Origin: an uncultured Eubacteriales bacterium
Lineage (GTDB): Bacteria > Bacillota > Clostridia > Christensenellales > Aristaeellaceae
DNA length: 64,000 nt
Reading direction: 5' to 3'
NCBI GenBank assembly: GCA_902764875.1
Contig: CACWXP010000015.1
Location: 22,794-86,793 of the forward strand
Part shown: piece after piece, positions 8,072 through 24,726 of the stretch
Layout of the letters: each line of letters starts with the position of its first letter
How positions within the stretch are numbered: the stretch's first letter is position 1
Made by a program: the position numbers and the translations under genes
Notes under the pieces: model-generated
Told to the model about the DNA's origin: nothing
Seen by the model: only the letters and a program-made list of their open reading frames with translations
The model's database searches: none

Positions 8072-9535
8072 ATGTCCTGCACAACAATACTGGTCGGCGC
8101 GAAGGCCAGCCACGACGGTTCCACCATGGTCGCCCGGACGGAGGACGGCCACTTTGACGTGAAGAACATGGTGGTGGTCAACCCGAAGGATCAGCCGAAG
8201 AAATACAAAAGCGTGATTTCCCATTTGACCGTTGAGCTGCCGGACAACCCGATGCGCTATACCGCCTGCCCCAATGTGGACCGGAAGGCGGGGATCTGGG
8301 CAGCCACGGGCATCAACGAGGCCAACGTCGGGATCACGGCGACGGAGACCATCACCACCAATCCACGGGTGCTGGCGGCGGATCCGCTGGTTGTTTACAA
8401 AAAGCCGAAGGGCCGGAAGGAAAAGGAAGTGCCCGGCGGCATCGGCGAGGAAGACATCGTCGTATTGGTGCTTCCGTATATCCGCAGCGCCCGGGAAGGC
8501 GTGCTGCGGCTGGCGGAGCTGCTTGAAAAATACGGGACATATGAGTCCAACGGCATCGCCTTCAACGACGAGCGCGAAGCCTGGTGGATGGAGACCATCG
8601 GCGGGCACCACTGGATCGCCCGGAAGGTGCCGGACGATCAGGTCGTCATTGCGCCGAACCAGTTCGCCATGGACGGGTTTGACCTGAAAGACGCCTTCGG
8701 AAAGAAGGAGAACAGCCTGTGCAGCGCGGATCTGCGGGAATTCGTGGCGGAAAACCACCTGGACCTGAACCAGGACGGCGTGTTCAATCCCCGGTCCGTC
8801 TTCGGGAGCCGGCGGGACATGGACCACGTTTACAATACACCCAGGGCCTGGTTCATGGGGCGGTATCTGGCGCCGAAAACCTATCGCTGGGACGGGGAAA
8901 ACGCGGACTTCACGCCGGAGAGCGACAATATTCCATGGAGCCTGAAGCCGGAAAAGAAGATTACGGCGGAGGACGTGAAATATCTGCTGAGCGGAAACTA
9001 TCAGGGGACGCCCTACAACCCCTATGCCAGACAGGACACCGGCATGGGGGGAAAATACCGCTCCATCGGCATCAACCGGACAGGTGTCACCACGATCTGC
9101 CAGATCCGTCCCTATGCGCCGGAAGCGGTGAAGGGGCTGGAATGGGTCTGCTTCGGATCCACGACTTTTGACGCGATCTTCCCGGTGTATACCAATGTAT
9201 CGAAGCTGCCGGATTATCTGACCAAGGTGACCACGGACGTTTCCACAGAAAACTTCTTCTGGGCAAGCCGCCTGATCGGCGCGCTGGCGGACCCGCATTT
9301 TGCTGCGACCATTCCGCTGGTGAACCGGTATCAGGACGAAGTGTTCATCCGCGGGCGGCAGCTGGTGCTGGAGTATGACCGGAAGATTGCGGAAAGCGGG
9401 GATCTTCGCCTGGCGGAGGAAGCAAACCGGAAACTGTGCGCCATGGCGAAAGAGGAAACCGTTAAGGCGCTGAACGACGTGCTGCTGGCCGCCAGCGAGA
9501 AGATGAAAAACGCGTACCATCTGGAAGATTACTGA
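8072..9535 (+). CDS. C69-family dipeptidase (PepD-like)
   Basis: An N-terminal nucleophile dipeptidase of 487 residues. It begins MSCTTILVGAKASHDGSTMV, in which Cys3 corresponds to the catalytic cysteine of family C69 (formerly U34). The conserved ARTEDG, NEANVGITATETI, NEREAWWMETIGGHHW and QFAMDGF-type segments follow. These enzymes hydrolyse dipeptides in the cytoplasm, consistent with the peptide importer that starts 300 bases downstream. ATG 8072 has GGAGGAAAGAGG before it. The N-terminal nucleophile is not preceded by a signal peptide, so an intracellular role is likely. Confidence 0.9.
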   Translation: MSCTTILVGAKASHDGSTMVARTEDGHFDVKNMVVVNPKDQPKKYKSVISHLTVELPDNPMRYTACPNVDRKAGIWAATGINEANVGITATETITTNPRVLAADPLVVYKKPKGRKEKEVPGGIGEEDIVVLVLPYIRSAREGVLRLAELLEKYGTYESNGIAFNDEREAWWMETIGGHHWIARKVPDDQVVIAPNQFAMDGFDLKDAFGKKENSLCSADLREFVAENHLDLNQDGVFNPRSVFGSRRDMDHVYNTPRAWFMGRYLAPKTYRWDGENADFTPESDNIPWSLKPEKKITAEDVKYLLSGNYQGTPYNPYARQDTGMGGKYRSIGINRTGVTTICQIRPYAPEAVKGLEWVCFGSTTFDAIFPVYTNVSKLPDYLTKVTTDVSTENFFWASRLIGALADPHFAATIPLVNRYQDEVFIRGRQLVLEYDRKIAESGDLRLAEEANRKLCAMAKEETVKALNDVLLAASEKMKNAYHLEDY

Positions 9536-9845: not shown

Positions 9846-10931
9846 ATGGACATGGACATGACGGAGAGAAAACGAAAAGAGCGGCAGCTGATTATTGTCG
9901 CGGTCATCGCCGCGGCGATCTTTGCCGCAGGATGGATTTTTCTGCCGATTCTGGCGGAAAAGATCCTGCTGGGCGTGATCCTGGTGCTGATTGTGGGCGC
10001 CATGTATCTCGACAACAGCACCGGGCGGTATATCTGCAAGCGCATCCTGCTGGCACTGATGACAGTGTTTATCATTGCGGCGATCACATTCTTCACGATG
10101 AATGCGATTCCCGGCGGGCCCTTCTCCAAGGAAAAGGCGCCTTCCGCCGCCGTTCAGGCCGTTCTGGAGGAACGCTTCCACCTGAACGAGCCGGTCGGAA
10201 AGCAGTTTCTGCTGTATCTGGAAGGCCTGATGCAGGGCAATTTCGGCGTATCGACAAAAACGGGACGCGAGATCTCCACGACCATCTTTGACTCCTTTGC
10301 CATTTCCGCCAAGCTCGGCGGCATGGCGGCACTGTTTGCGATCTGCCTGGGCGTGCTTCTCGGCAGCATCGCGGCGCTGAACCGGGCAAAGCTGGCGGAC
10401 CGGCTGATTATTTTCTTCACAACGCTGTTTGTGGCTGTGCCGAGCTTTATCATGGCGACGCTGCTGCTGCTGGTTTTCTGCCTGCAGCTGAACTGGTTCC
10501 CGATCTTCAGCACGGAGAATCCATCCTATGTTCTGCCGGTCGTCGCACTGATGCTTTCGCCGATGAGCTATATTACCCGCCTGACAAAAACTTCCATGCT
10601 GGATGTACTGGGGCAGGATTATATCCGGACGGCCCGGGCCAAAGGTGTGAATCGATGGCTTGTGATATTCAAACACGCTCTGCGCAACGCGCTGATTCCC
10701 GTGATTACTTATGTGGGACCGATGACGGCCTATATTCTGACCGGATCCATGGTGGTTGAAGCCGTGTTTACGACGGGCGGCCTGGGAACCAAGTTTGTGC
10801 AGGGAATCACGAACCGGGACTACCCCATGATCATGGGGACAACCATCTTCCTGGCCACGCTGATGGTGACGGCCACGCTGCTGAGCGACCTGGTGTATAA
10901 ACTGGTTGACCCACGGATTGATTTTGACTGA
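9846..10931 (+). CDS. oppB: Peptide ABC transporter permease, OppB type, with extra N-terminal helices
   Basis: Membrane subunit of the first oligopeptide importer, 361 residues. The canonical OppB start is recognisable at about residue 58 (GRYICKRILLALMTVFIIAA). Before it lies an unusual extension of nearly 60 residues with a charged start (MDMDMTERKRKERQ) and two short hydrophobic segments. The core carries the EAA-like loop DYIRTARAKGVNRWLVIFKH and the conserved GGLGTKFVQGITNRDYPMI ending. The family is usually near 306 residues, so the extension accounts for the excess. GGAGGAG precedes ATG 9846. Confidence 0.88.
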   Translation: MDMDMTERKRKERQLIIVAVIAAAIFAAGWIFLPILAEKILLGVILVLIVGAMYLDNSTGRYICKRILLALMTVFIIAAITFFTMNAIPGGPFSKEKAPSAAVQAVLEERFHLNEPVGKQFLLYLEGLMQGNFGVSTKTGREISTTIFDSFAISAKLGGMAALFAICLGVLLGSIAALNRAKLADRLIIFFTTLFVAVPSFIMATLLLLVFCLQLNWFPIFSTENPSYVLPVVALMLSPMSYITRLTKTSMLDVLGQDYIRTARAKGVNRWLVIFKHALRNALIPVITYVGPMTAYILTGSMVVEAVFTTGGLGTKFVQGITNRDYPMIMGTTIFLATLMVTATLLSDLVYKLVDPRIDFD

Positions 10932-10946: not shown

Positions 10947-12026
10947 ATGAGCGAGTACAATCCCAACATTCCCCCGAAAAAAAGGCCCTTCAGTATGCAG
11001 ATCGACGTTGCAAAATTTGAAGCGGCCACCGACGCGGAAAAAGCCCAGCACGAAGTGATGCGGGAAAGCACGACCTTCTTCCGGGACGGAATGCGGAAGC
11101 TGTTCCGCAATCCGCTGGCTGTCGGCTCCATGATCGTGCTGCTGGTGATTCTGGTGACGATTATCATCGCACCGCTGATCGTTCCCTATTCCTACAGCGG
11201 GATGATCACGGTGGACGGAAAGCGCGACAAAAGCGCCAAGAATCTTCCGCCGTTTACCTATTCGCAGCTGGAACAGCAGGCGATTGAAAAAGGCGAGAAG
11301 ATTTTCCCCCATATTTTCGGAACAGACGAATTGTGCCGTGATTACTTTATCCGGGTGATCTACGGCGCACGGGTATCCCTGGCGGTCGGCTTCTTTGCTT
11401 CGCTGATCGTGCTGGCGATCGGTCTTTTGTACGGCTCGATCGCCGGATACGCGGGCGGAAAGACAGACCTGATCATGATGCGGATCGTGGATGTGATCTA
11501 CTCCCTGCCGGATACCCTGATGGTGATTCTGCTTTCCGTGGTGCTGGACCAGCTGCTGGGACAGAGCCTGCAGAACACGGTGCTGGCCAGCATCGGCCCG
11601 AATATGCTGTCCATGTTCGCCGTCTTCGGTCTGCTGTACTGGGTCGGCATGGCCCGCCTGGTTCGCGGACAGATCCTGAGCATCAAAAACAACGAATATG
11701 TGCTGGCGGCACAGGCCATGGGCGCCAAGCGCGGGCGGATTATCCGGAAACATATTCTGCCGAACTGCATGGGCGTGATCATTATTTCCACGGCGCTGCA
11801 GATTCCTTCCGCCATTTTTACCGAGAGCTTCCTGAGCTTTATCGGCCTGGGCGTCCAGGCGCCGATGCCTTCCCTGGGTTCTCTGGCCAATTCCGCCCGG
11901 CAGGCATTGCAGGCTTATCCTTACAAGATGATATTCCCGGCGGCGGGCATCTGCCTGATCGTCCTGTCTTTCAACTTGCTGGGCGACGGACTTCGCGACG
12001 CCTTCGATCCCAAACTGAGGAAGTGA
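10947..12026 (+). CDS. oppC: Peptide ABC transporter permease, OppC type
   Basis: Second permease of the importer, 359 residues. A cytoplasmic N-terminus with a proline/lysine-rich start (NIPPKKRPFS) leads to the first helix near residues 65-85. The external loop is enlarged (KRDKSAKNLPPFTYSQLEQQ) before the usual FGTDELCRDYFIRVIYGARVSL. The EAA loop is EYVLAAQAMGAKRGRIIRKH and the C-terminus FDPKLRK. It lies 15 bases behind oppB and 4 bases before oppD, a tight operon. Confidence 0.9.
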   Translation: MSEYNPNIPPKKRPFSMQIDVAKFEAATDAEKAQHEVMRESTTFFRDGMRKLFRNPLAVGSMIVLLVILVTIIIAPLIVPYSYSGMITVDGKRDKSAKNLPPFTYSQLEQQAIEKGEKIFPHIFGTDELCRDYFIRVIYGARVSLAVGFFASLIVLAIGLLYGSIAGYAGGKTDLIMMRIVDVIYSLPDTLMVILLSVVLDQLLGQSLQNTVLASIGPNMLSMFAVFGLLYWVGMARLVRGQILSIKNNEYVLAAQAMGAKRGRIIRKHILPNCMGVIIISTALQIPSAIFTESFLSFIGLGVQAPMPSLGSLANSARQALQAYPYKMIFPAAGICLIVLSFNLLGDGLRDAFDPKLRK

Positions 12027-12030
12027 TTTC

Positions 12031-13038
12031 ATGAGTGAAATGCCAATGCTCCAGGTGAAGAACCTGCATACCTCTTTTTTCACGGATGCCGGCGAAGTGA
12101 GAGCCGTAAACGGCATCTCCTATAATCTGGACGCCGGAAAGGTGCTGGGCATCGTCGGGGAAAGCGGCAGCGGCAAGAGCGTATCTGCCTATTCCATCCT
12201 GCGGATCCTGACAGACACCGGACGCGTGACGGAAGGCGAGGTTCTTTTCAAAGGCGAGAATATTCTGGAATATACAGAGCAACAAATGCAGAAATTCCGC
12301 GGCAGCCGGATCTCTATTATTTTCCAGGATCCCATGACATGCCTGAACCCGACGTTCACCATCGGGAACCAGCTGATGGAAGCCATTCTGCTTCATACCG
12401 ACCGGAACAAAAAAGAGGCGGAAGAACGGGCCATTGAAATGCTGCGGCTGGTCGGCATCTCCGAACCGGAAAAGCGCATGAAACAATACCCCTTTGAACA
12501 TTCCGGCGGCATGCGGCAACGGGTTATGATCGCCATGGCGCTGGCCTGTGAACCCGATATTCTGATCGCCGACGAACCGACGACGGCGCTGGACGTTACG
12601 ATCCAGGCCCAGATTCTGGATCTGATTCAGGATCTGCAGAAACAGATGGGCATGGCCGTAATCATGATCACGCACGATCTGGGCGTTATTGCGGATATGT
12701 GCGACGAGATTATCGTGATGTACGGCGGAAAGGTCTGCGAGCGCGGAACGACGGACGAAATCTTCTATAACCCGCGCCATGAATATACAAAGGGACTGAT
12801 CCGGTCCATTCCCCGGATTTCGGAAAAGCATGAGAGACTGATTCCGATTTCCGGCTCCCCGGTGGATCTGCTGAATCTGCCGAAGGGCTGCGCTTTTGCT
12901 TCCCGCTGTGACCGTGCGATGAAAATCTGCCTGGAACAGCCGCCGGAAGAGGTCAGAGTGAATGATTCCCACATCGCCGCCTGCTGGAACAACGTAAAGA
13001 GGATGATGGAAGAAGCGAAGGACGGTGAAGAAGCATGA
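12031..13038 (+). CDS. oppD: Peptide ABC transporter ATPase, OppD type
   Basis: ATPase of 335 residues. Walker [10 protein letters not shown]-loop [10 protein letters not shown], signature [14 protein letters not shown], Walker [13 protein letters not shown] and H-loop [12 protein letters not shown] are all intact. The C-terminal oligopeptide (HPY) region holds the cysteine pattern [14 protein letters not shown]...AACW, which in related ATPases such as DppD binds an iron-sulfur cluster. The last four bases overlap the next gene (ATGA at 13035), so OppD and OppF are translationally coupled and should form a heterodimer. Confidence 0.92.
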
Positions 13039-14000
13039 GCGAACAGAAGCATCTGGTGGATGTACGCGGCCTGAAGGAATATTTCCCCGTTAAATCCGGC
13101 ATGATGAACAGAATCATGCTGAAGGCCGTGGATGATGTTTCCTTCACCATCGACGAGGGGGAGACGCTGGGACTGGTCGGAGAATCCGGCTGCGGAAAAA
13201 CAACGGTCGGAAGAACGCTGCTGCATCTGTACAAACCCACGGCCGGCGAGGTATACTTTGACGGACGGCAGGTTACGGGTAAGAATATCGGCGAATTCCG
13301 CAAGGATATGCAGATTGTTTTCCAGGATCCGTATTCTTCGCTGAACCCCCGGATGACGGTTTCGGACATCATCGGTGAACCGCTGGATATTCACAAGCTG
13401 TACAGCACTAAAAAGGAACGGGCGGACCGGATCAGCGAACTGCTGACGCTGGTGGGACTGAACAGCGAACATGCCACCCGCTATGCCCATGAATTTTCCG
13501 GCGGTCAGCGCCAGCGCATCGGCATCGCCCGGGCCCTGGCGGTGAATCCCCGTTTTATCGTCTGCGATGAACCGGTTTCCGCGCTGGACGTTTCCATCCA
13601 GGCCCAGATTATCAATACCTTTGAGGACCTGCAGCAGAAACTCGGGATTGCATACCTGTTTATTGCCCATGATCTGCTGGTGGTTCAGCACATGAGCAAG
13701 CGGATTGCCGTGATGTATCTGGGGCGCATCGTTGAGATCGGACCCGCGAAAGACATCATCGGTTCACCGATTCATCCCTACACGGAATCGCTGATTTCCG
13801 CCATTCCCATGCCGGATCCGGAAACCGCGCGGAATAAACACCGCATCATTCTGGAAGGTGACGTGCCTTCTCCGCTGCATATGCCGAAAGGCTGTCCGTT
13901 CCGCACCCGGTGCCGCTACGCTACAAAGGAATGCGAGGAGAAACGTCCCGAACTGAAAGAAGTTGCCCCGGAACGGTTTGTGGCCTGCCACCACCGGTAA
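13035..14000 (+). CDS. oppF: Peptide ABC transporter ATPase, OppF type
   Basis: Partner ATPase of OppD, 321 residues: Walker A GESGCGKTT, Q-loop FQDPYSSLNPRMTV, signature SGGQRQRIGIARAL, Walker B FIVCDEPVSALD, H-loop IAHDLLVVQHM. The C-terminus has the same type of cysteine motif (CPFRTRCRYATKEC...VACHH). Start overlaps oppD by four bases. A weak hairpin separates it from the binding-protein gene. Confidence 0.92.
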   Translation: MSEQKHLVDVRGLKEYFPVKSGMMNRIMLKAVDDVSFTIDEGETLGLVGESGCGKTTVGRTLLHLYKPTAGEVYFDGRQVTGKNIGEFRKDMQIVFQDPYSSLNPRMTVSDIIGEPLDIHKLYSTKKERADRISELLTLVGLNSEHATRYAHEFSGGQRQRIGIARALAVNPRFIVCDEPVSALDVSIQAQIINTFEDLQQKLGIAYLFIAHDLLVVQHMSKRIAVMYLGRIVEIGPAKDIIGSPIHPYTESLISAIPMPDPETARNKHRIILEGDVPSPLHMPKGCPFRTRCRYATKECEEKRPELKEVAPERFVACHHR

Positions 14001-14048: not shown

Positions 14049-14068
14049 TTGAAGGAGGAACCTACCCT

Positions 14069-15724
14069 ATGAAGAAACTGTTAGCTCTTCTGTTGGCTGC
14101 CATGATGGTTCTCGGCTGCGTTTCCGCGTTTGCCGATGCCGGCAGCGAACCCGACTGGACCGGCTACGACGCCCGCATTGCGGAGATCAAATCGACCACC
14201 GACTTTGCCGCCCGCGAAAAGCTGATGCATGAAGCGGAAGACGAACTGATGGCCACCGGCGCGATCGTTCCGATCTACTACTACAACGACGTGTACATGG
14301 CGCGGGAAGGCCTGACCGGCTACTATTCCAACGCTTATGCCACCAAGTTCTTCATGTATGCCGACTTTGGCGAGAACACCACCCTGCGCCTGCAGCTGGC
14401 TTCCGAGCCGGACAAACTGGATCCCGCTCTGAACAGCTCCGTGGACGGCGCCTGCCTGGCTGCCAACAGCTTCGGCGGACTCTACACCTATGACGCCAAC
14501 GGCGAACTGGCCCCCAACTTCGCGACCGGATATGAAGTGAGCGAAGACGGCCTGACTTACACCTTCACCATCCGTGACGGCCTGAAGTGGTCCGACGGCA
14601 CGCCCCTGACCGCCAAGGACTTCGAATATTCCTGGAAGCGCGCTGCCGCTCCTGAAACCGCTGCTGACTACAGCTACATGTTCGACGGCATCAAGGGCTA
14701 TCCGGACGATCTGCAGGCGATTGCCTCCGAAGACGGAAAGACCTTCACCGTGACCCTGAACGCTCCCTGCGCCTACATGCTGGACCTGGCTGCTTTCCCG
14801 ACCTTCTTCCCGGTGCAGCAGGCCTGTGTTGAAGCTGCCGCCACCGCGGACAACCCCGGCGCCTGGGCTCTGGAAGCCGGCTTCGTTTCCAGCGGCGCTT
14901 TCGTGCTGGAGAGCTGGGAACACAACAAGTCCATGGTGTATGTGAAGAACCCCAACTACTGGGATGCCGCGAACGTGAAGCTGGAGCGTCTGGAGTTCAT
15001 GCTGAGCGATGACGATACGGCTATTTTCGCTGCTTACCAGAACGGTGACCTGGACTTCACGGATTCCGTGCCGACCGACCAGATCGCTTCCCTGCTGGAC
15101 AACCCCGAGTTCCACATCGTGGACGAACTGGGCACCTATTACGTGATCTTCAACGTGAAGTCCGACATGTTTGCCGGCAAGACCGTTGAACAGGCTGCCG
15201 CGATGCGGAAGGCGATGGGCCTGCTGATCGACCGTCAGTACATCATTGACACTGTCGGCCAGACCGGACAGAAGATCGCCACCTCCTTCATCCCCGCCGG
15301 CATGCTGGACGGCAACGGCGGCATCTTCAAGGATGCTTCCGCCTGGAACTATCCGAACGGTGCGGACGGATACTTCCCCGAAGAGCCCAATGTGGAAGAA
15401 GCGATTGAACTGCTGAAGAGCGCCGGCTTCGAGTTTGACGCCAACAACATGCTGTCCGCTTCCACCCCGATCGCCTTCGAGTATCTGACCAACAACACCT
15501 CCGGTCACGTCGCGATCGCTGAGTGCCTGCAGCAGGACTTTGCCCAGATCGGCATCAACATGACGATCAAGTCCATCGACTGGGCCGTGTTCCTGAATGA
15601 ACGCAAGGAAGGCAACTTCGGTATCGCCCGTAACGGCTGGATCGCTGACTTCAACGATCCGATCAACATGCTGGAAATGTGGACCACCGTCTCCGGCAAC
15701 AACGATGCTCAGTTTGGCCGTTAA
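14069..15724 (+). CDS. Peptide-binding protein, OppA-like, apparently circularly permuted
   Basis: Secreted or lipid-anchored binding protein of 551 residues, the last gene of the opp operon. Residues 1-24 are a signal peptide (VLGC at 14-17, then an Ala-x-Ala-like site). Residues about 25-98 (YDARIAEIKSTTD, EAEDELMATGAIVPIYYYND, YSNAYATKFFMYAD) match what normally forms the C-terminal end of cluster-C binding proteins. Only then comes the usual mature start (TLRLQLASEPDKLDPALNSS, residue 105 on). The protein stops at GNNDAQFGR, exactly where that segment would be expected. Total length is normal, so the end seems moved to the front rather than lost. AAGGAGG precedes the ATG. Confidence 0.85.
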   Translation: MKKLLALLLAAMMVLGCVSAFADAGSEPDWTGYDARIAEIKSTTDFAAREKLMHEAEDELMATGAIVPIYYYNDVYMAREGLTGYYSNAYATKFFMYADFGENTTLRLQLASEPDKLDPALNSSVDGACLAANSFGGLYTYDANGELAPNFATGYEVSEDGLTYTFTIRDGLKWSDGTPLTAKDFEYSWKRAAAPETAADYSYMFDGIKGYPDDLQAIASEDGKTFTVTLNAPCAYMLDLAAFPTFFPVQQACVEAAATADNPGAWALEAGFVSSGAFVLESWEHNKSMVYVKNPNYWDAANVKLERLEFMLSDDDTAIFAAYQNGDLDFTDSVPTDQIASLLDNPEFHIVDELGTYYVIFNVKSDMFAGKTVEQAAAMRKAMGLLIDRQYIIDTVGQTGQKIATSFIPAGMLDGNGGIFKDASAWNYPNGADGYFPEEPNVEEAIELLKSAGFEFDANNMLSASTPIAFEYLTNNTSGHVAIAECLQQDFAQIGINMTIKSIDWAVFLNERKEGNFGIARNGWIADFNDPINMLEMWTTVSGNNDAQFGR

Positions 15725-15748: not shown

Positions 15749-15777
15749 GGGGCTGTTGCGAAAGCAACAGCCCCTTT
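15749..15777 (+). terminator. Terminator of the opp operon
   Basis: Perfect 11-bp stem GGGGCTGTTGC / GCAACAGCCCC around a GAAA tetraloop, followed by TTT. It closes the transporter operon 25 bases after the binding-protein stop. Confidence 0.85.
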
Positions 15778-16120: not shown

Positions 16121-16666
16121 ATGGTTGAGTATATCACACGGGAGTTCATTACGGGAGCGGATCTGCGGGAGATGCGGGCTTTGCTTGGCCTGACGCAAAA
16201 GGAGCTGGCTTCTTTTCTGCGCTGTTCCAAGCGGACGGTGGAGAACTGGGAAACCAAGGCGGAGAAAATCACCGGCCCTCTGGTACCGCTGCTTGAAATA
16301 TTGATCCGCCATCCGGAACAGGTGAAAGCGCTTGAACTGCCACAGGAACGGCTGAAGCTCCGTCTTTGGTATTATTATGAACGTCAGGTATGCACCATTA
16401 TTGATGTCGATGAATTAAGGCAGATGGTTTCCATCCGGAATTACACAAATAATCCGCTGATGCGTGCCTTTGGGATTAATACAGAACCGACGTTTGAGGA
16501 TTATAAGGAATTTCTCGCATCCAGATGCTTTCCGGAGTCCAGAGATAAAATGAAGCTCCAGTTGAAAGAACTCGGGATTCCGTTTTACGATCCGCTCCTG
16601 ATCATTGAAAAAACAGAAGGCCGCATGGCTGACGATCATTTTTGGATTCGGATAGACAGGGGGTGA
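16121..16666 (+). CDS. HTH antitoxin fused to a HipS-like domain
   Basis: A 181-residue protein. Residues 14-65 form an XRE-type helix-turn-helix (LREMRALLGLTQKELASFLR, CSKRTVENWE), the HipB-like part. Residues about 85-181 (SIRNYTNNPLMRAFG, FEDYKEFLASRCFPESRDKM, GIPFYDPLLIIEKTEGRMAD) resemble the small N-terminal subdomain normally found at the front of HipA kinases, or as the separate HipS protein of HipBST systems. The kinase gene follows 5 bases later. The pair therefore looks like a split HipA with its first subdomain attached to the repressor. AAAGGAGG precedes the ATG. Confidence 0.65.
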   Translation: MVEYITREFITGADLREMRALLGLTQKELASFLRCSKRTVENWETKAEKITGPLVPLLEILIRHPEQVKALELPQERLKLRLWYYYERQVCTIIDVDELRQMVSIRNYTNNPLMRAFGINTEPTFEDYKEFLASRCFPESRDKMKLQLKELGIPFYDPLLIIEKTEGRMADDHFWIRIDRG

Positions 16667-16671
16667 CGTAA

Positions 16672-17478
16672 ATGACAGAATTTTTCAGCGAGGAAATTCA
16701 GATGCAGAATCGCCGTTCTTCCAAGGGAAATCAGTTGAAATTCGAACGGAATCATGTTTGGTATAAAGCAGACTACCTAGGTTATGAAGGACTTGTGGAG
16801 TATGTTGTTTCAAAGCTGCTTCGATATTCTTCGCTGCAGGGCTTGGAATATGTTGATTATGAACTGGAACAGATCACCTATAATGGTCAGGTGTTCAATG
16901 CGTGCAAAAGCCAGGACTTTACAGGTGGATGGCAGCTGATTACATTGGAACGTCTTCTGACACAGGTATTTGGAAGGGGACTGAACCAGGTTGTATATGC
17001 GATTGAAGACCATACGGAACGACTGAAAAAGCTGACAGAACTGGTCGAACAAGTGACCGGGATTAGGGACTTCGGAATGTATATGGTCAAGCTGATCACC
17101 ATCGATACTTTTTTCCTGAATGAAGACCGGCATGCGCACAATCTGGCAGTTTTGACGAAAGATTTGAAAGAATTCAGACTTTGTCCTGTCTTTGATAACG
17201 GCGCGGCGCTCCTGTCAGATACGATGCTGGACTATCCGGAAGGAAGGGATCCCTTACAGATGAAGCATCAGGCGAAACCAAAGACATTCTGCGACTCTTT
17301 TGATGAACAGCTGGATATTGCGGAAGCGCTGTACGGAATGCAGATGCGTTTTCAATTTGGATATAATGAGGTAAAGGCGATTCTGGATCAGGCGGATATT
17401 TACACTGCTGAAATCCGCAAACGGGTATTGGATCTGGTGATGTCCCAGAAGTCCCAATATCAGTATCTGTTCACCTGA
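16672..17478 (+). CDS. HipA/HipT-like serine/threonine kinase toxin
   Basis: A 268-residue kinase-like protein lacking the usual HipA N-terminal subdomain. An ATP-binding lysine is plausible in VWYKADYLGYEG near residue 30. The catalytic loop FFLNEDRHAHNLAVL (about 147-160) supplies the Asp and Asn of the HipA DRHxxN motif, and CPVFDNGAALLSD (about 171-183) the metal-binding Asp. HipA-type toxins phosphorylate tRNA synthetases or other translation targets. All key residues are present, so it should be active unless held by the preceding protein. The two genes are co-transcribed. Confidence 0.7.
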   Translation: MTEFFSEEIQMQNRRSSKGNQLKFERNHVWYKADYLGYEGLVEYVVSKLLRYSSLQGLEYVDYELEQITYNGQVFNACKSQDFTGGWQLITLERLLTQVFGRGLNQVVYAIEDHTERLKKLTELVEQVTGIRDFGMYMVKLITIDTFFLNEDRHAHNLAVLTKDLKEFRLCPVFDNGAALLSDTMLDYPEGRDPLQMKHQAKPKTFCDSFDEQLDIAEALYGMQMRFQFGYNEVKAILDQADIYTAEIRKRVLDLVMSQKSQYQYLFT

Positions 17479-18219: not shown

Positions 18220-20169
18220 ATGAAAAAGATCCTTTCCCTGGTTCTGGCGATCGCTCTCGTGCTGGGATGCATGAGCTTCGCCGCGGCTGAAGAAGCTGGC
18301 ACTGACACCTATAAGATGATCGACAGCTTCGACATCACCACGCTGGACTATGTTTTCAACAACAAGTCCTCCAACGGTGACTATCTGTGCAACTTTATTG
18401 AAGGCCTGCTCACGCAGGACTCTCACGGGAAACTGATCCCCGGCATGGCTTCTGAGTGGACCCACAATGAAGACGCCAGCGAGTGGACCTTCACGATCCG
18501 CGACGACGCCGTCTGGTCCACCAGCGAAGGCGAAGTATACGACAACGTGAAGGCGGAAGACTTTGTGACCGGTATGCAGCATGCTGTGGCCACTGATTCC
18601 GAAACCCTCGGTCTGGTTGAAGGCCTGATCGTCGGTCTGAAGGAATACAGAGCCGGCACCGGCACCTGGGACGACGTCGGCATCAAAGCTGACGGCAACA
18701 AACTGACCTACACCCTGACCCAGAGCTGCGCCTATTTCGACGGCATGACCACTTATTCCATCCTGTGGCCCATCAATGCCGAGTTCCTTGAATCCCAGGG
18801 TGACAAGTTCGGCGCTGTGGAAGCTTCCAGCATTCTGTACAACGGTGCCTACATCCTGTCCTCTCTGGTTTCCGCCCAGGAAGTTCGTTTCGACGCGAAC
18901 CCCAACTACTATGACAAGGACAATGTCTTTGTTCAGCACGTTGTGGTTTCCTACTATGACGGTAACGACCCCGCCCAGAACTTCAACATGTTCGTTCAGG
19001 GTGAAGTAACTTCGACCGCCATCAACTCTTCCCTGCCGGATGTTGTGAAGAAGGCTGACGAACTGTATGCCGACAATCAGTACAGGAGCCTGACGACGGC
19101 CACCTCCTACTGGGGCGCCTTCAACTTCGACCGTCAGTCCTATGCCCTGTACAACGATCCTTCCGTTTCAACCACCACCAAGGATGACGCGCAGAAGGCC
19201 GATGCCAAGGCTGCGATCCTGAACAAGTATTTCCGCCTGGCTATCTATGCGGCATACTCCACCAAGGCCACCCAGGCTGTGACCAAGGGCGAGGAAAGAG
19301 CGCTGGATGCTGCCCGCAACACGCTGGTACCCTACACCTTCGCTATCACCAGCGACGGCCGCAGCTACGGTTCCATCCTGACCAAGTATGTTGAAGAACT
19401 CGAGCCCGAATTTGCCGGCATCGACCTGAACGACGGTCAGGACGCCTGGTACAATCCCGAAAGAGCTCAGAAGTTCGCTGCAAAGGCCAAGGAAGAACTG
19501 GGCGACACGATCAGCAGCTGGCCGATCATCCTGGACTACCCGGTATACGCTGCCAGCGAAAACCAGAAGAATGCCGCCCTGGCGATGAAGGATTCCATCG
19601 AAAAGGCAATCGGCGACTATGTACAGGTGAACCTGGTCTATCTGGAAGGCAACTCTTCCGTTTACTATTCCGCGTTCTACACTGTGCCCACCGGTGAAGA
19701 CAACTCCATTGACTTCTCCTTCGGCGCCGGCTGGGGTCCTGACTACGGCGACCCGCTGACCTACATCCACTGCTTCGACGCCCTGGAAGGCGACATGCTG
19801 AACTACTCCGGCCTGAACATGGCCAGCGAGACCGAAAGCGAATCCGGCAAAGCCGCCAAGGAAGCAATCGGCCTGTATGCGATCCAGGAAGTGATGGATC
19901 AGGCGATTAAGGCTGTCGGCGACGAGCGTATTGAGCTGTTTGCGAAGTGCGAAGCGATGCTGCTGACCGGCGGCATCCTGCGTCCCTACAGCACCAGCGG
20001 CGCGAACCTGATGGTGAGCAAGGTTGTTCCTTTCACTGCCGGCTACGGTCTGTACGGTCAGGCTTCCTACAATATGGTTCCTTACTTCAAGTATATGAAA
20101 CTGCAGAGCGAGCCTGTAACCACCGAACAGTACGAGGCAGCCAAGGAAGCCTGGTTCGCCGGTGAATAA
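18220..20169 (+). CDS. amiA: Oligopeptide-binding protein, AmiA type
   Basis: Extracytoplasmic peptide-binding protein of 649 residues, first gene of the second peptide importer. Signal peptide 1-25 contains LVLGC, which fits a permissive lipobox, followed by FAAAEE, so either lipoprotein processing or ordinary cleavage is possible. The fold order is the normal one for this family (SEWTHNEDASEWTFTIRDDA near residue 80, NPNYYDKDN, then GWGPDYGDPLTYIHCF towards the end). The size matches streptococcal AmiA/AliA (about 650), clearly larger than OppA. ATG 18220 follows GGAGG; longer readings from TTG at 18097 lie in the leader. Confidence 0.88.
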   Translation: MKKILSLVLAIALVLGCMSFAAAEEAGTDTYKMIDSFDITTLDYVFNNKSSNGDYLCNFIEGLLTQDSHGKLIPGMASEWTHNEDASEWTFTIRDDAVWSTSEGEVYDNVKAEDFVTGMQHAVATDSETLGLVEGLIVGLKEYRAGTGTWDDVGIKADGNKLTYTLTQSCAYFDGMTTYSILWPINAEFLESQGDKFGAVEASSILYNGAYILSSLVSAQEVRFDANPNYYDKDNVFVQHVVVSYYDGNDPAQNFNMFVQGEVTSTAINSSLPDVVKKADELYADNQYRSLTTATSYWGAFNFDRQSYALYNDPSVSTTTKDDAQKADAKAAILNKYFRLAIYAAYSTKATQAVTKGEERALDAARNTLVPYTFAITSDGRSYGSILTKYVEELEPEFAGIDLNDGQDAWYNPERAQKFAAKAKEELGDTISSWPIILDYPVYAASENQKNAALAMKDSIEKAIGDYVQVNLVYLEGNSSVYYSAFYTVPTGEDNSIDFSFGAGWGPDYGDPLTYIHCFDALEGDMLNYSGLNMASETESESGKAAKEAIGLYAIQEVMDQAIKAVGDERIELFAKCEAMLLTGGILRPYSTSGANLMVSKVVPFTAGYGLYGQASYNMVPYFKYMKLQSEPVTTEQYEAAKEAWFAGE

Positions 20170-20213
20170 TCAGATATCCGAAGGATAACTTGATTTTGGT
20201 CAGATAAAAATGG

Positions 20214-20245
20214 CGGAAGCCGGAAGAGCAATCTCCCGGCTTCCG
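20214..20245 (+). terminator. Intercistronic hairpin between amiA and amiC
   Basis: Perfect 10-bp stem CGGAAGCCGG / CCGGCTTCCG with a 12-base loop, no T-run after it. Probably a partial terminator or 3'-end stabiliser that allows more AmiA than permease to be made. Confidence 0.6.
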
Positions 20246-20271
20246 TCGTTCCCTACAGGAAGGTTGACTGT

Positions 20272-21771
20272 ATGAAAAAGGGCTACATTCTGAAGCGATT
20301 GCTTCGTTCGCTGATCTCCATTCTGGTGATTATGCTGGTTGTTTTCATTCTCGTGTATACGCTGATTCCACGGGATAATATTTTCTTTGAGGATGCAACA
20401 TACCGTAAACTGGGTGGCAAGCCGGACGAAAAAACGGACTATGTCTATAACACCTGGGCCAGATTGGGCTATCTTGACTATGTCAAGATTAATGATTACT
20501 GTCTTGAAAAATATGAAGCAGGCAGCGAGGAAATGAAAAAAGCCGTGCTGCCGGATTCTCAGGAGACAGCGAATTTTGTTGCCCTGTATGAATCCAAAGG
20601 ATATACGGTCGAATACATGAAAGTCAGCGGACAGGCATACGCTTATAAAGATATACCTGTGATTCAGCGGCTGGCGACATGGTTCGGCAATCTGATCCAG
20701 ATTGACCATGTGAACCGGGTACAGGACCCGAATAATCCGGATCTGGAGCGGAAGATTTATTTCGGCACGACGCCGACCGGCGGGTGGGCCATTATCGGAA
20801 GCGGAACCTATCACAAGTATCTGTTATATACAGATTCGCATTTCCCGTTTATTCATCAGAATTTTATCACCCTTAACATGGGTAATTCCTATCCGACTTA
20901 TCAGGGACTGGAAGCATTATCAGTCATGTTCTCTCCCCAGGGAACAGAAGTCAAACGTGATGTCACGTTCGAGACAGGGGAAACAGCCTCATCAGCCATT
21001 AACTTCGGAACCCTTACCTACAAAGAGAATCTTGACCGAATGGACAAGAAAAAGTTCGTGGACCATTACGCAAACTATACCACCTTCAAAGATCAGGCGT
21101 CCATGGTGGGCACTTCTTTTACGATGGGTATTTTTGCGATGCTGCTGGCATACGGTATCGGCCTTCCGGTCGGCATGGCAATGGCCAGAAACAAGGACGG
21201 CGTGATTGATAAGCTGGGTATGCTCTTCATCATCTTTATCACCTCCGTGCCGTCTCTGGCATATATTTACATTTTCCGTTATCTCGGCACGACGATTTTC
21301 GGCCTGCCTTCCATTTTCACAACGTTCGGCCCCTCGGATATCCGCAGCTGGATCCTTCCGATTATCTCCCTTGCCCTTCCGTCCATTTCATCCCTGATGC
21401 TGTGGATCAGAAGGTACGTGGTGGATCAGTCCAATTCCGACTATGTCAAATTTGCCAAAGCCAAGGGACTGAGCCGGAAGGAGATCTTCAGGAGACATAT
21501 CTTCAAAAACGCCAGCATTCCGATTGTGCACGGGATTCCAAGCTCGCTGGCGGCCTGCATCACAGGCGCCATCATTACTGAGGCCATCTATTCCGTGGGC
21601 GGCATGGGAAAAATGCTGCCGAATGCCATCAACCAGTACAATAACGTCATGATTGTCGCGCTGACTTTCCTGTTTTCGACGATCTCCGTTGTTTCCGTGC
21701 TCCTCGGAGATATCATCCTGACAAAGGTAGATCCGCGCATCTCATTAACCGAGAAGGCAGGTAGATCATAA
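20272..21771 (+). CDS. amiC: Oligopeptide ABC permease, AmiC type
   Basis: A 499-residue membrane protein, matching streptococcal AmiC in length (about 498) and unlike OppB (about 306). The first helix (ISILVIMLVVFILVYTLIP) is followed by an exceptionally long external region of some 240 residues, then five C-terminal helices. The EAA loop is DYVKFAKAKGLSRKEIFRRH and the ending GGMGKMLPNAINQYNNVMIV is the conserved one. The gene ends TAATGG, overlapping the next start by one base. Confidence 0.9.
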   Translation: MKKGYILKRLLRSLISILVIMLVVFILVYTLIPRDNIFFEDATYRKLGGKPDEKTDYVYNTWARLGYLDYVKINDYCLEKYEAGSEEMKKAVLPDSQETANFVALYESKGYTVEYMKVSGQAYAYKDIPVIQRLATWFGNLIQIDHVNRVQDPNNPDLERKIYFGTTPTGGWAIIGSGTYHKYLLYTDSHFPFIHQNFITLNMGNSYPTYQGLEALSVMFSPQGTEVKRDVTFETGETASSAINFGTLTYKENLDRMDKKKFVDHYANYTTFKDQASMVGTSFTMGIFAMLLAYGIGLPVGMAMARNKDGVIDKLGMLFIIFITSVPSLAYIYIFRYLGTTIFGLPSIFTTFGPSDIRSWILPIISLALPSISSLMLWIRRYVVDQSNSDYVKFAKAKGLSRKEIFRRHIFKNASIPIVHGIPSSLAACITGAIITEAIYSVGGMGKMLPNAINQYNNVMIVALTFLFSTISVVSVLLGDIILTKVDPRISLTEKAGRS

Positions 21772-22700
21772 TGGAAAGAATTTCAGAAGACAATCTGTTT
21801 GAATTTGCGACCTTTGACGAAAAGGAATCGGAGCATATTGCCGCTCCCCGGTATTCCTACTGGAAATCCGTGTGGCGCACATTCTTTAAAAGCAAGGTGA
21901 CGGTTTTTCTGTCCGTCTTTGTGATTGTTCTGGTTGCTTTCGCCCTGATCCAGCCTCTGCAATCCGGTTATTCTCCGACCGTGGCGCCGAACATTAACAA
22001 TGCGGATATGAAATATCTTCCGCCCAGCGCGGAACATATTTTCGGAACCGACAATATCGGAAACGAAGTCTGGGACGTGGTATGGGCAGGCGCAAGGAAC
22101 TCCATTATTGTCAGCTTTGTCAGTACCGCCATCATTATGGTAGTTGGCATTCTTGTCGGAGCCATATGGGGTTTCAGCAAAAAGATGGATAAATGGATGA
22201 TTGAGGTTTACAACGTGGTTGCAAACGTTCCTTATCTCCTGCTGGCCATGGTGCTGTCCTATGTGCTGGGCGCCGGACTTGGAACGCTGATTTTTGTCAT
22301 GACCTGTATTGACTGGATCTATGTTGCATATTTTATCCGTACCCAGGTGATGATCATCCGTGACCGAGAATACAATATGGCCAGTAAATGTCTGGGAACC
22401 AAGACATTTACCATGATCGTCAAGAACATTCTTCCGTATCTTGTTTCCGTCATTGTGACATACATCTCCCGTGAAATTCCCGGGCTGATTTCCTACGAAG
22501 TATTCCTTTCCTATCTGGGTCTGGGTCTTGGTACCAACTATGCCTCTCTGGGCCGGACGATTTCACAGTATAAATCATTCATGACCGGGTATCCTCATCT
22601 GTTCTGGATTCCTGTACTGGTTCTGGCGGCCATTGCGATTTCCCTGTATGTGGTCGGACAGAAACTGGCGGATGCGACGGATCCGCGGACACATCGGTAG
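21771..22700 (+). CDS. amiD: Oligopeptide ABC permease, AmiD type
   Basis: Second permease, 309 residues (AmiD is about 308). Helix 1 is at about 38-60, the FGTDNIGNEVWDVVWAGARN segment follows, and the EAA loop reads EYNMASKCLGTKTFTMIVKN. The conserved ISYEVFLSYLGLGLGTNYAS and ADATDPRTHR ends are present. Start overlaps amiC by one base. Confidence 0.9.
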   Translation: MERISEDNLFEFATFDEKESEHIAAPRYSYWKSVWRTFFKSKVTVFLSVFVIVLVAFALIQPLQSGYSPTVAPNINNADMKYLPPSAEHIFGTDNIGNEVWDVVWAGARNSIIVSFVSTAIIMVVGILVGAIWGFSKKMDKWMIEVYNVVANVPYLLLAMVLSYVLGAGLGTLIFVMTCIDWIYVAYFIRTQVMIIRDREYNMASKCLGTKTFTMIVKNILPYLVSVIVTYISREIPGLISYEVFLSYLGLGLGTNYASLGRTISQYKSFMTGYPHLFWIPVLVLAAIAISLYVVGQKLADATDPRTHR

Positions 22701-22709
22701 GAGGCAGGC

Positions 22710-23783
22710 ATGAAAGATAAAATTATTATTTCCGCGAAGGATATTGAAGTTCAGTTTCGCGTGCGGGACAGATTCCTGACGGCGATCCGGAACGTTTCGC
22801 TGGACCTGTATGAAGGGGAGACATTTGCCATCGTCGGTGAATCCGGAAGCGGAAAATCCGTATTTACAAAAACATTTACCGGTATGCTGGAATCCAACGG
22901 AAAAATCACCAACGGTTCCATTATGTACCATGGACAGGATCTGACCAAACTGAAGAAGGAAAAAGACTGGGCAGGAATTCGCGGCGTCAAGATTGCGACG
23001 GTTTTCCAAGATCCCATGACGTCCCTGAATCCTATCCGAACCATCGGTTTCCAGATCACTGAGGTGATCGAAAAGCATCAGAAGCTTTCCAAATCAGAAG
23101 CCAAAGCCCAGGCAATCAGCATCATGGAGCGGGTTGGCATTCCCAATGCGGCAGATCGGTTTGACAATTATCCTTTCCAGTATTCGGGCGGAATGCGTCA
23201 ACGGATTGTTATTGCCATTGCACTGGCATGCCATCCGGAAATCCTGATCTGTGACGAGCCGACAACTGCCCTGGATGTGACGATTCAGGCACAGATTATC
23301 AAACTGATCAAAGATCTGCAAAAGGAACTTGGATTTACGACCATCTATATTACGCATGACCTGGGTGTTGTTGCCAATGTTGCGGACCGGGTCGGCGTGA
23401 TGTACGGCGGGCAGATTATTGAATACGGAACGGTGAACGAGATTTTCTACGATCCGCAACATCCGTATACCTGGGCGTTGCTATCGGCATTGCCGCAGCT
23501 GGGCGTTAAGGGTGAAGATCTTTACTATATCACCGGAACCCCGCCCTCTCTGTATAATAAAATTGAGGGGGACGCTTTTGCGCCGCGGAACCCTCAGGCA
23601 CTGAAGATCGATTTTGCGAAAGAGCCGCCATTCTTCAAGGTAAGCGATACGCATTATGCCAAAACATGGCTTTTGGATCCGAGGGCCCCGAAGGTGGAAA
23701 AACCGGCAGCGATTCAGAATTTGCATGAGAAGATTCTCAAAATGACCGCTAAAGGAGGTGCTTTCCATGTCGGCAATGACTAA
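22710..23783 (+). CDS. amiE: Oligopeptide ABC ATPase, AmiE type
   Basis: ATPase of 357 residues. Walker [10 protein letters not shown]-loop [10 protein letters not shown], signature [14 protein letters not shown], Walker [14 protein letters not shown]-loop [11 protein letters not shown]. The long C-terminal region lacks the cysteine cluster seen in the OppD of this window ([16 protein letters not shown] replaces it), as is usual for AmiE. GGAGG lies 6 bases before the ATG. Confidence 0.92.
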
Positions 23784-24726
23784 CCGGGATGTGCTGCTCT
23801 CGCTGAAAGATGTGGAAATCTCTTTCGATAACGGCGGAAGAAAAAAATTCAAAGCGGTTCAGGGAGCAACCTTTGATATTTACAAAGGCGAAACCTTTGC
23901 GCTGGTGGGAGAATCCGGGAGCGGAAAGACCACGATCGGACGGGCCATTATGCGGATCAATGAGCTGAGCAACGGGGAAATCCTGTTCGAAGGCAAAAGA
24001 ATTTCCGGAAAACTCAGCAAGCAGGAAGACATGGAAGTCATCCGCAACATTCAGATGATTTTCCAGGATCCTGCCGCCTCGCTGAACGAACGCGCGACGA
24101 TCGAATACTGTATTTCCGAAGGCCTGTATAATTTCCATCTCTATCAGAACGAGCAGGATCGTCTGGTAAAGGTTGACCGTGCACTGGAGGAAGTCGGACT
24201 GCTGCCGGAACACAAATCAAGATATCCTCATGAGTTTTCCGGAGGCCAGCGTCAGCGCGTCGGCATCGCCCGGGCGCTGATTATGGAACCGAAACTGGTT
24301 GTGGCGGATGAACCGATTTCCGCACTGGATGTTTCCATCCGTGCACAGGTGCTGAACCTGATGAACAAGCTGAAAAATGAAAAAGGCCTGACTTATCTGT
24401 TCATTGCCCACGACCTTTCCGTTGTTCGCTTTATTGCCGACCGGATTGCCGTGATTCATCTCGGCCGTATTGTTGAAATCGCAGAGACAGAAGAGCTTTT
24501 TGCGTATCCTCTGCATCCATACACGATTTCTCTGCTCAGCGCAGTTCCCATGCCGGATCCTGTTATTGAAAAGCAACGGGAGCCCATTGTATACAGTGAA
24601 ACAACAGAGGAAAAAACAGGCCCGGATTATGAAATGCGTGAAATACGGCCCGGGCACTTCGTCTATTGCAATCCGGAACAGGCCATGGAATATCAGAAAG
24701 CCGCGGAATCAATAAAAGAAGGCTGA
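23767..24726 (+). CDS. amiF: Oligopeptide ABC ATPase, AmiF type
   Basis: Partner ATPase, about 319 residues: Walker [11 protein letters not shown]-loop [14 protein letters not shown], signature [14 protein letters not shown], Walker [14 protein letters not shown]-loop [12 protein letters not shown] place the start at ATG 23767, seven bases after AAAGGAGGT; a GTG at 23758 sits inside that ribosome site. The gene overlaps amiE by 17 bases, and its end overlaps the convergent minus-strand gene by 18 bases. Confidence 0.9.

Follow-up and report, generated by a model that had tools for sequence, protein, structure and literature searches.

Binding proteins of the OppA/DppE type make up structural cluster C of the substrate-binding proteins (Pfam SBP_bac_5), in which the segments follow a common order and both termini lie in domain I. 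In BbOppA4, domain III comprises residues 286-503 and both natural termini are in domain I (PMC5736914), and AliD has been divided into domains in the same way, with domain III corresponding to lobe 2 (PMC11192437). A natural circular permutation has been described for Tp0684 (MglB-2) of Treponema pallidum, a proposed cluster Bc glucose-binding protein (PMC4990184), and this was the one natural permutation that we recognised in open full texts on oligopeptide-, solute-, substrate-, and periplasmic binding proteins (most subscription papers lay outside the search). A preliminary description of the DNA considered here knew of no account of circular permutation in OppA, and we likewise found no description of it for OppA-type proteins in the open full texts searched. 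The DNA in question is a stretch of 64,000 nucleotides from an uncultured Eubacteriales bacterium (assembly GCA_902764875.1, contig CACWXP010000015.1, positions 22,794 to 86,793), referred to from here on as the window. It contains an oppA gene whose product, the window protein, most probably (we put the probability at about 87%) is a working Opp oligopeptide-binding protein with a circularly permuted chain. The gene and its parts are as follows.

14053..14058, + strand: aggagg, likely the ribosome-binding site for permuted oppA, read by eye
14069-15724, + strand: permuted oppA, an open reading frame (ORF) of 551 amino acids, from the ORF list and its translation
14069..14134, + strand: predicted signal peptide, residues 1-22, with A-x-A before Asp-23; peptide and cleavage site both predicted by eye
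14150..14368, + strand: moved segment, residues 28-100, homologous to the OppA/DppE C-terminus, from alignments with structures and relatives
14369..14380, + strand: joint, residues 101-104 (GENT), leading from the old C-terminus to the old mature start
14381..15721, + strand: body, residues 105-551, corresponding to OppA from its mature start to about OppA residue 442
15749..15777, + strand: probable terminator hairpin (ggggctgttgc-gaaa-gcaacagcccc-ttt) 3' of the stop codon, found by eye

When the window protein was compared with solved structures using phmmer, residues 25-443 of DppE (8ay0) matched residues 107-544, and residues 452-506 of DppE matched, as a separate stretch, residues 32-86. 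Because the C-terminal stretch of 8ay0 thus matches residues that precede the body match, the order of the two parts is swapped in the window protein. The same was seen with Bacillus subtilis OppA (8are), of which residues 18-450 correspond to residues 102-547 and residues 463-520 to residues 39-96, the second stretch being weak and not significant alone. Further, the moved segment is 48-53% identical to the C-terminus of the five nearest full-length relatives of normal order, with BLASTP E values of about 1e-19 to 1e-20, far beyond chance, and residues 146-545 match positions 1-367 of the 368 in the Pfam SBP_bac_5 profile with 294.2 bits (curated score, 32.4). These alignments confirm that the C-terminus of OppA/DppE has its homologue in residues 28-100, and all that precedes it in residues 105-551; the whole homologous sequence is present in rotated order with nothing lost. 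The preliminary description had proposed just such a swap, with the old mature start at residue 105 and no net loss, and had placed the moved segment at about residues 25-98; the homology to the family C-terminus held, and the limits are better set at about 28-100. Since the common order with both termini in domain I is lacking, we regard the window protein as a permuted variant of cluster C and not as a typical member. All matches that were listed and read for it, by sequence and by fold, are family 5 binding proteins, and among the listed matches the only profile is SBP_bac_5; a scan of seven proteins against NCBIfam gave only matches below the curated scores.

The structure of the window protein was predicted with confidence as a monomer, and the closest fold to this model is OppA, with the three domains of the latter. 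As a natural comparison of normal order, we modelled a stretch of L079, a locus in which two permuted units are fused in tandem, and this model aligns with OppA from end to end. None of the 50 structural matches listed was a permuted solved structure, and none of them begins before model residue 81. When the window gene was compared with nine relatives, the ratio of nonsynonymous to synonymous substitution rates was 0.04-0.19 for the whole gene and 0.06-0.23 for the moved segment; the permuted gene is under purifying selection.

Because residue 551 of the window protein aligns with BbOppA4 residue 454 in the structure comparison, i.e. inside domain III, both new chain ends are placed by the alignment in domain III (lobe 2). 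The natural termini do lie in domain I, as the preliminary description had stated, but the new break does not, contrary to its suggestion that domain I could tolerate one. In normal OppA, lobe 2 is unbroken and set into a split lobe 1, whereas in the window protein it is lobe 2 that is split and lobe 1 that runs without a break; judged by the domain limits, the number of lobe crossings is unchanged.

The window's order recurs widely. In a search of 61 near genomes (its own included), four other genomes of the genus carried it at 90-96% identity (in one, the gene is divided between two contigs), as did a genome of another family (G045) at 63% identity; at the remaining loci where both segments were found, the order was normal except at L017, which is permuted differently. 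Further, scanning named genomes gave 473 confirmed related stretches. The best 80 loci were kept, and 77 of these 80 loci, all from other assemblies, had the window's order (two were cut by a contig end), the other three being two fused tandems and one locus split by a stop codon. Among the record titles of the 80 loci are Lachnospiraceae, Oscillospiraceae, Christensenellaceae, and Anaerolineaceae/Chloroflexi, as well as the strain Proteiniclasticum aestuarii SCR006. Because so many independent assemblies, including that of a named strain, share the order, a misassembly of the window gene, which the preliminary description had named as one finding that would overturn its reading, is ruled out. 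We also noted a permuted gene with one stop codon in its A1 segment in a metagenome bin (L104:1-1684, + strand).

The preliminary description was incomplete in one respect, in that the permutation in the window is one of several, at five break sites in all. We ran profiles of six segments on the fetched loci and left ORFs with fewer than five of the six unclassified. Across the further ARRANGEMENTS, 242 distinct ORFs had at least five of the six segments: 122 were of normal order, 117 were single permuted units with four break sites, and the rest were two fused tandems of P1 units and a fragment (L245). As the loci were mostly collected with permuted queries, the permuted share is not unbiased. 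P1, the window's order with the break between segments B and C1, was found in 93 ORFs; P2, with the break before segment B, in nine; P3, with the break just within domain III, past its entry strand, in 14; and P4, with the break within the C segment, in one (L136). Outside this set, a further P3 gene (L329) was found in a genome from a different family of the same phylum, and a fifth site, P5, with its break in domain II, in L293 of Subdoligranulum variabile strain TSDC17.2-1.1. On the numbering of Salmonella typhimurium OppA, alignments place the breaks near 442 (P1) and near 355-358 (P2), and inspection of alignments by eye places them near 283-285 (P3), near 478 (P4), and near 130 (P5); the new ends of P1-P4 were compared alongside normal relatives. 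The rule that every break falls in domain III, true of four sites, failed with P5.

P3 occurs in six genomes that form one group or two sister groups, and in others, whereas P4, P5, and the P2 protein of L017 are singletons. No second arrangement of the L017 kind was found in the family of its genome (G047; matches in two of five genomes), and no second P4 in that of G253 (matches in one of 18 genomes). Among the matches listed, neither 391 genomes of the class nor a plasmid collection showed P5 again. Breaks within segment A1 were sought in 80 normal ORFs and none was found, the one odd row being a truncated ORF. A match on a Lactobacillus crispatus plasmid that seemed to span the moved segment proved to be a normal-order gene, the match having begun upstream of the annotated start. 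In evenly drawn genomes, each draw including that of the window, permuted genes were present in at least 15 of 396 genomes of the order, at least seven of 391 of the class, and at least two of 159 of the phylum; these counts are floors, as few candidates were scored per genome and only the best matches were fetched. At L286 (G808:C13:44500-62500), five P3 genes, 66-85% identical, lie next to one another in the same direction, 220-381 bp apart. At L076:3673-7593 (+ strand) and L079:5458-9444 (+ strand), in bins titled Chloroflexi and Anaerolineaceae, two permuted binding proteins are fused in each chain by long E/A/V-rich linkers, the chains being 1307 and 1329 amino acids from stop to stop.

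To count origins, trees were built on subsets thinned by identity (66, 64, 73, and 78 rows); the 64-row tree left out L035 and L029, which have long branches, and the 73-row step dropped the two fused tandems and fragment L245 from the 242 ORFs. On the final tree, of 78 rows, 12 changes of arrangement are required, and well-supported branches force 10 or more of these for the label "normal"; reversions could account for some. In approximately unbiased (AU) tests, all on groups named after the trees had been seen, a single origin was rejected for all permutants together (p = 2.6e-37), for P2 (p = 1.2e-45), and for P3 (p = 5.7e-46), and weakly for P1 (p = 0.023). A joint origin of the L207 and L209 groups was not rejected (p = 0.52), which weighs against extra origins, nor was that of L124 with L125 (p = 0.40), although the careful tree left these apart. 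Taking L207 and L209 as one, we count about eleven probable origins: two for P1, three for P2, four for P3, and one each for P4 and P5. Two origins of P1 are supported by no more than p = 0.023, which makes ten the cautious estimate. Overall, these comparisons show that circular permutation recurs in this family, with several separate origins and five break sites. The nearest normal relatives are 73% identical for L329, 72% for L017, 71% for L207, and 68% for L293. Those of the window protein are only 48% identical, and for this reason its permutation is judged to be old; a large family shares it.

The permuted gene stands directly behind its own oppBCDF genes, with which it is co-encoded.

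8072..9535, + strand: gene for a family C69 peptidase, upstream of opp
9846..10931, + strand: OppB-type permease, same operon
10947..12026, + strand: OppC-type permease
12031..13038, + strand: OppD-type ATPase
13035..14000, + strand: OppF-type ATPase, immediately before permuted oppA

An opp ATPase gene lies no more than 900 bp upstream in 67 of the 68 P1 ORFs with at least 4 kb of upstream sequence. Among other arrangements, L017, L136, L207, and L209 also stand behind oppF, with 16-192 bp to the open frame, and L208 has OppB and OppC downstream; no Opp gene was found within the short flanks of L205. Between two opp clusters of the window, at 16121-17478, lie a helix-turn-helix gene and, after it, one whose match to HipA_C is weak and sub-threshold. 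A second cluster of Opp/Ami type follows at 18220-24726. At its head is a related protein of the AmiA/AliB type, which is colinear with AliB (27-646 to 5-607) and hence, as the preliminary description had said, of normal order, unlike the permuted gene; it is followed by two permeases and two ATPases, identified by eye in the translations.

The window protein begins, behind its signal peptide, with the roughly 73 residues of the old C-terminal segment, and a turn of about four residues joins the old termini. We propose that the protein would fold as OppA, close on peptides, and dock on the OppBC encoded upstream. Peptide binding is what its relatives and operon suggest. It would act as an ordinary peptide receptor of an Opp importer, and what differs is where the chain starts. 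The permutation could have arisen by duplication of the gene in place, in-frame fusion of the end of one copy to the mature start of the next, and trimming at either outer end, while the new start retained or regained a signal peptide and a tether. Tandem duplication, the route suggested in the preliminary description, is in our view the likeliest, although the window gene itself bears no trace of a recent duplication because its permutation is old. The most plausible consequence is that the export signal and tether would sit on lobe 2 and not on lobe 1. In Gram-positive bacteria, an N-terminal lipid anchor of binding proteins is usual. Scored with a PROSITE-like lipobox pattern, 57 of 88 P1 ORFs and 64 of 80 normal ORFs have a lipobox, and the median distance from its cysteine to the first segment is 32 in P1 compared with 13 in normal ORFs, the rows being related to one another. 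By eye, the permuted ORFs of L077 and L084 have, at the expected lipobox position, a hydrophobic stretch and then a charged stalk that resembles a coiled coil. Because a model of the Ami transporter proposes that one permease part contacts lobe 1 only and the other lobe 2 (PMC11192437), a tether shifted to lobe 2 from its place on lobe 1 could change how the receptor is presented; both the shift and its mattering are what we infer.

Several points weigh against this reading. The L079 model is the weaker one (predicted local distance difference test 77.6, predicted template modelling score 0.75, linker mostly below 50) and was built from unpaired rows of body and C segment, and the alignment behind the folding of the window protein contained only permuted relatives. 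As the structure aligners are sequential, how the moved segment packs in the window protein is judged from the confidence of the model and from the comparison with L079. The tether is not secure in the clade of the window protein: there is a lipobox-like VLGC at residues 14-17, but lipid anchoring is uncertain because the cysteine is not conserved in near relatives and its own clade. Finally, no fused duplicate of normal order, the direct intermediate, was found among the classified loci, the tandems being of already permuted units.

We weighed other explanations of the rotated order. A chimeric join in assembly or binning might give a normal gene a permuted look, and most of the genomes are metagenome bins, with P4 (L136), P5 (L293), and the P2 protein of L017 seen in one genome each. 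Set against this are the 77 loci with the window's order, the P3 genes of a one-contig genome (G748) and five further genomes, the P2 genes like that of L205 in six genomes (a contig end truncates one), those like that of L208 in two, and the frames, signal peptides, and stops, all in place in the ORFs read; the artefact, to which we give next to no chance, is refuted for the window gene. Splitting of a gene in two and rejoining in the other order, with no duplication, would yield the same end product (the mechanism is set out in PMC3320104). However, tandem copies and fused tandems exist in the family and several break sites sit more easily with duplication, and on this rather weak argument we consider the route unlikely. 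Less likely still is that the moved segment completes a neighbouring molecule in an obligate domain-swapped dimer or chain. A domain-swapped dimer has been reported for the binding protein AliC (PMC11192437), and the middle of the L079 tandem can be read as a normal-order unit, but the joint between the old C-terminus and the old mature start is only a few residues long (4-6 in all 93 P1 ORFs, 2-6 in ten ORFs of P2 order including L245, 2-10 in the eleven P3 ORFs with the C2 segment found, and three in P4), and the window protein is predicted with confidence as a monomer.

A serious rival to the tether idea is neutral drift of topology, in which new termini do the fold no harm, duplications happen often, and the permutation has no functional meaning; we hold its chance to be only a little short of even. 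Permuted genes retain their ordinary place behind oppF, the closest permuted and normal pairs (L329, L017, L207) are about 70% identical, and the break in domain II runs counter to a strict rule. Yet about 10 of the roughly eleven inferred origins have their ends in domain III, which makes up about 43% of the length of BbOppA4; the chance of at least 10 of 11 falling there is about 0.002 (hand arithmetic, uncorrected for detection bias), and the longer lipobox-to-body distance in P1 points the same way, related rows notwithstanding. A bolder, rather doubtful proposal is that the roughly eleven rotations at five sites in oligopeptide-binding proteins of Clostridia and their neighbours, nearly all of which move the ends and tether from lobe 1 to lobe 2, reflect convergent selection on how the receptor is held over its transporter, leading to fused tandem receptors.

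The window protein belongs to a common family that has been permuted repeatedly and in which the closest permuted and normal proteins are about 70% identical. Such natural pairs are matched, and with them one can ask whether folding, closing, and docking on the transporter depend on where the chain ends and the tether lie. They also carry a warning for annotation, in that permuted genes are reported as ordinary because the Pfam model spans only the middle of the protein.

The window protein resembles OppA and DppE in being homologous to them over nearly the whole mature length and in having the same fold and operon partners, and differs from them in its circularly permuted segment order and in termini that align with domain III and not domain I. 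Duplication, fusion, and trimming, as in the permutation of swaposin and DNA methyltransferases (PMC3320104), would likewise explain its order, although those proteins are not binding proteins. Like Tp0684, it is a naturally permuted binding protein of an ATP-binding cassette importer; for Tp0684, its authors raise adaptation to tethering. The two belong to different structural clusters (C in the window, B for Tp0684) and have different ligands. The Tp0684 permutation needs a fourth lobe crossover, whereas that of the window protein, by its domain limits, adds none, and sequence similarity in the moved part is poor in Tp0684 and clear here. For Tp0684 one arrangement is described (PMC4990184), and the OppA-type proteins compared here have five break sites.
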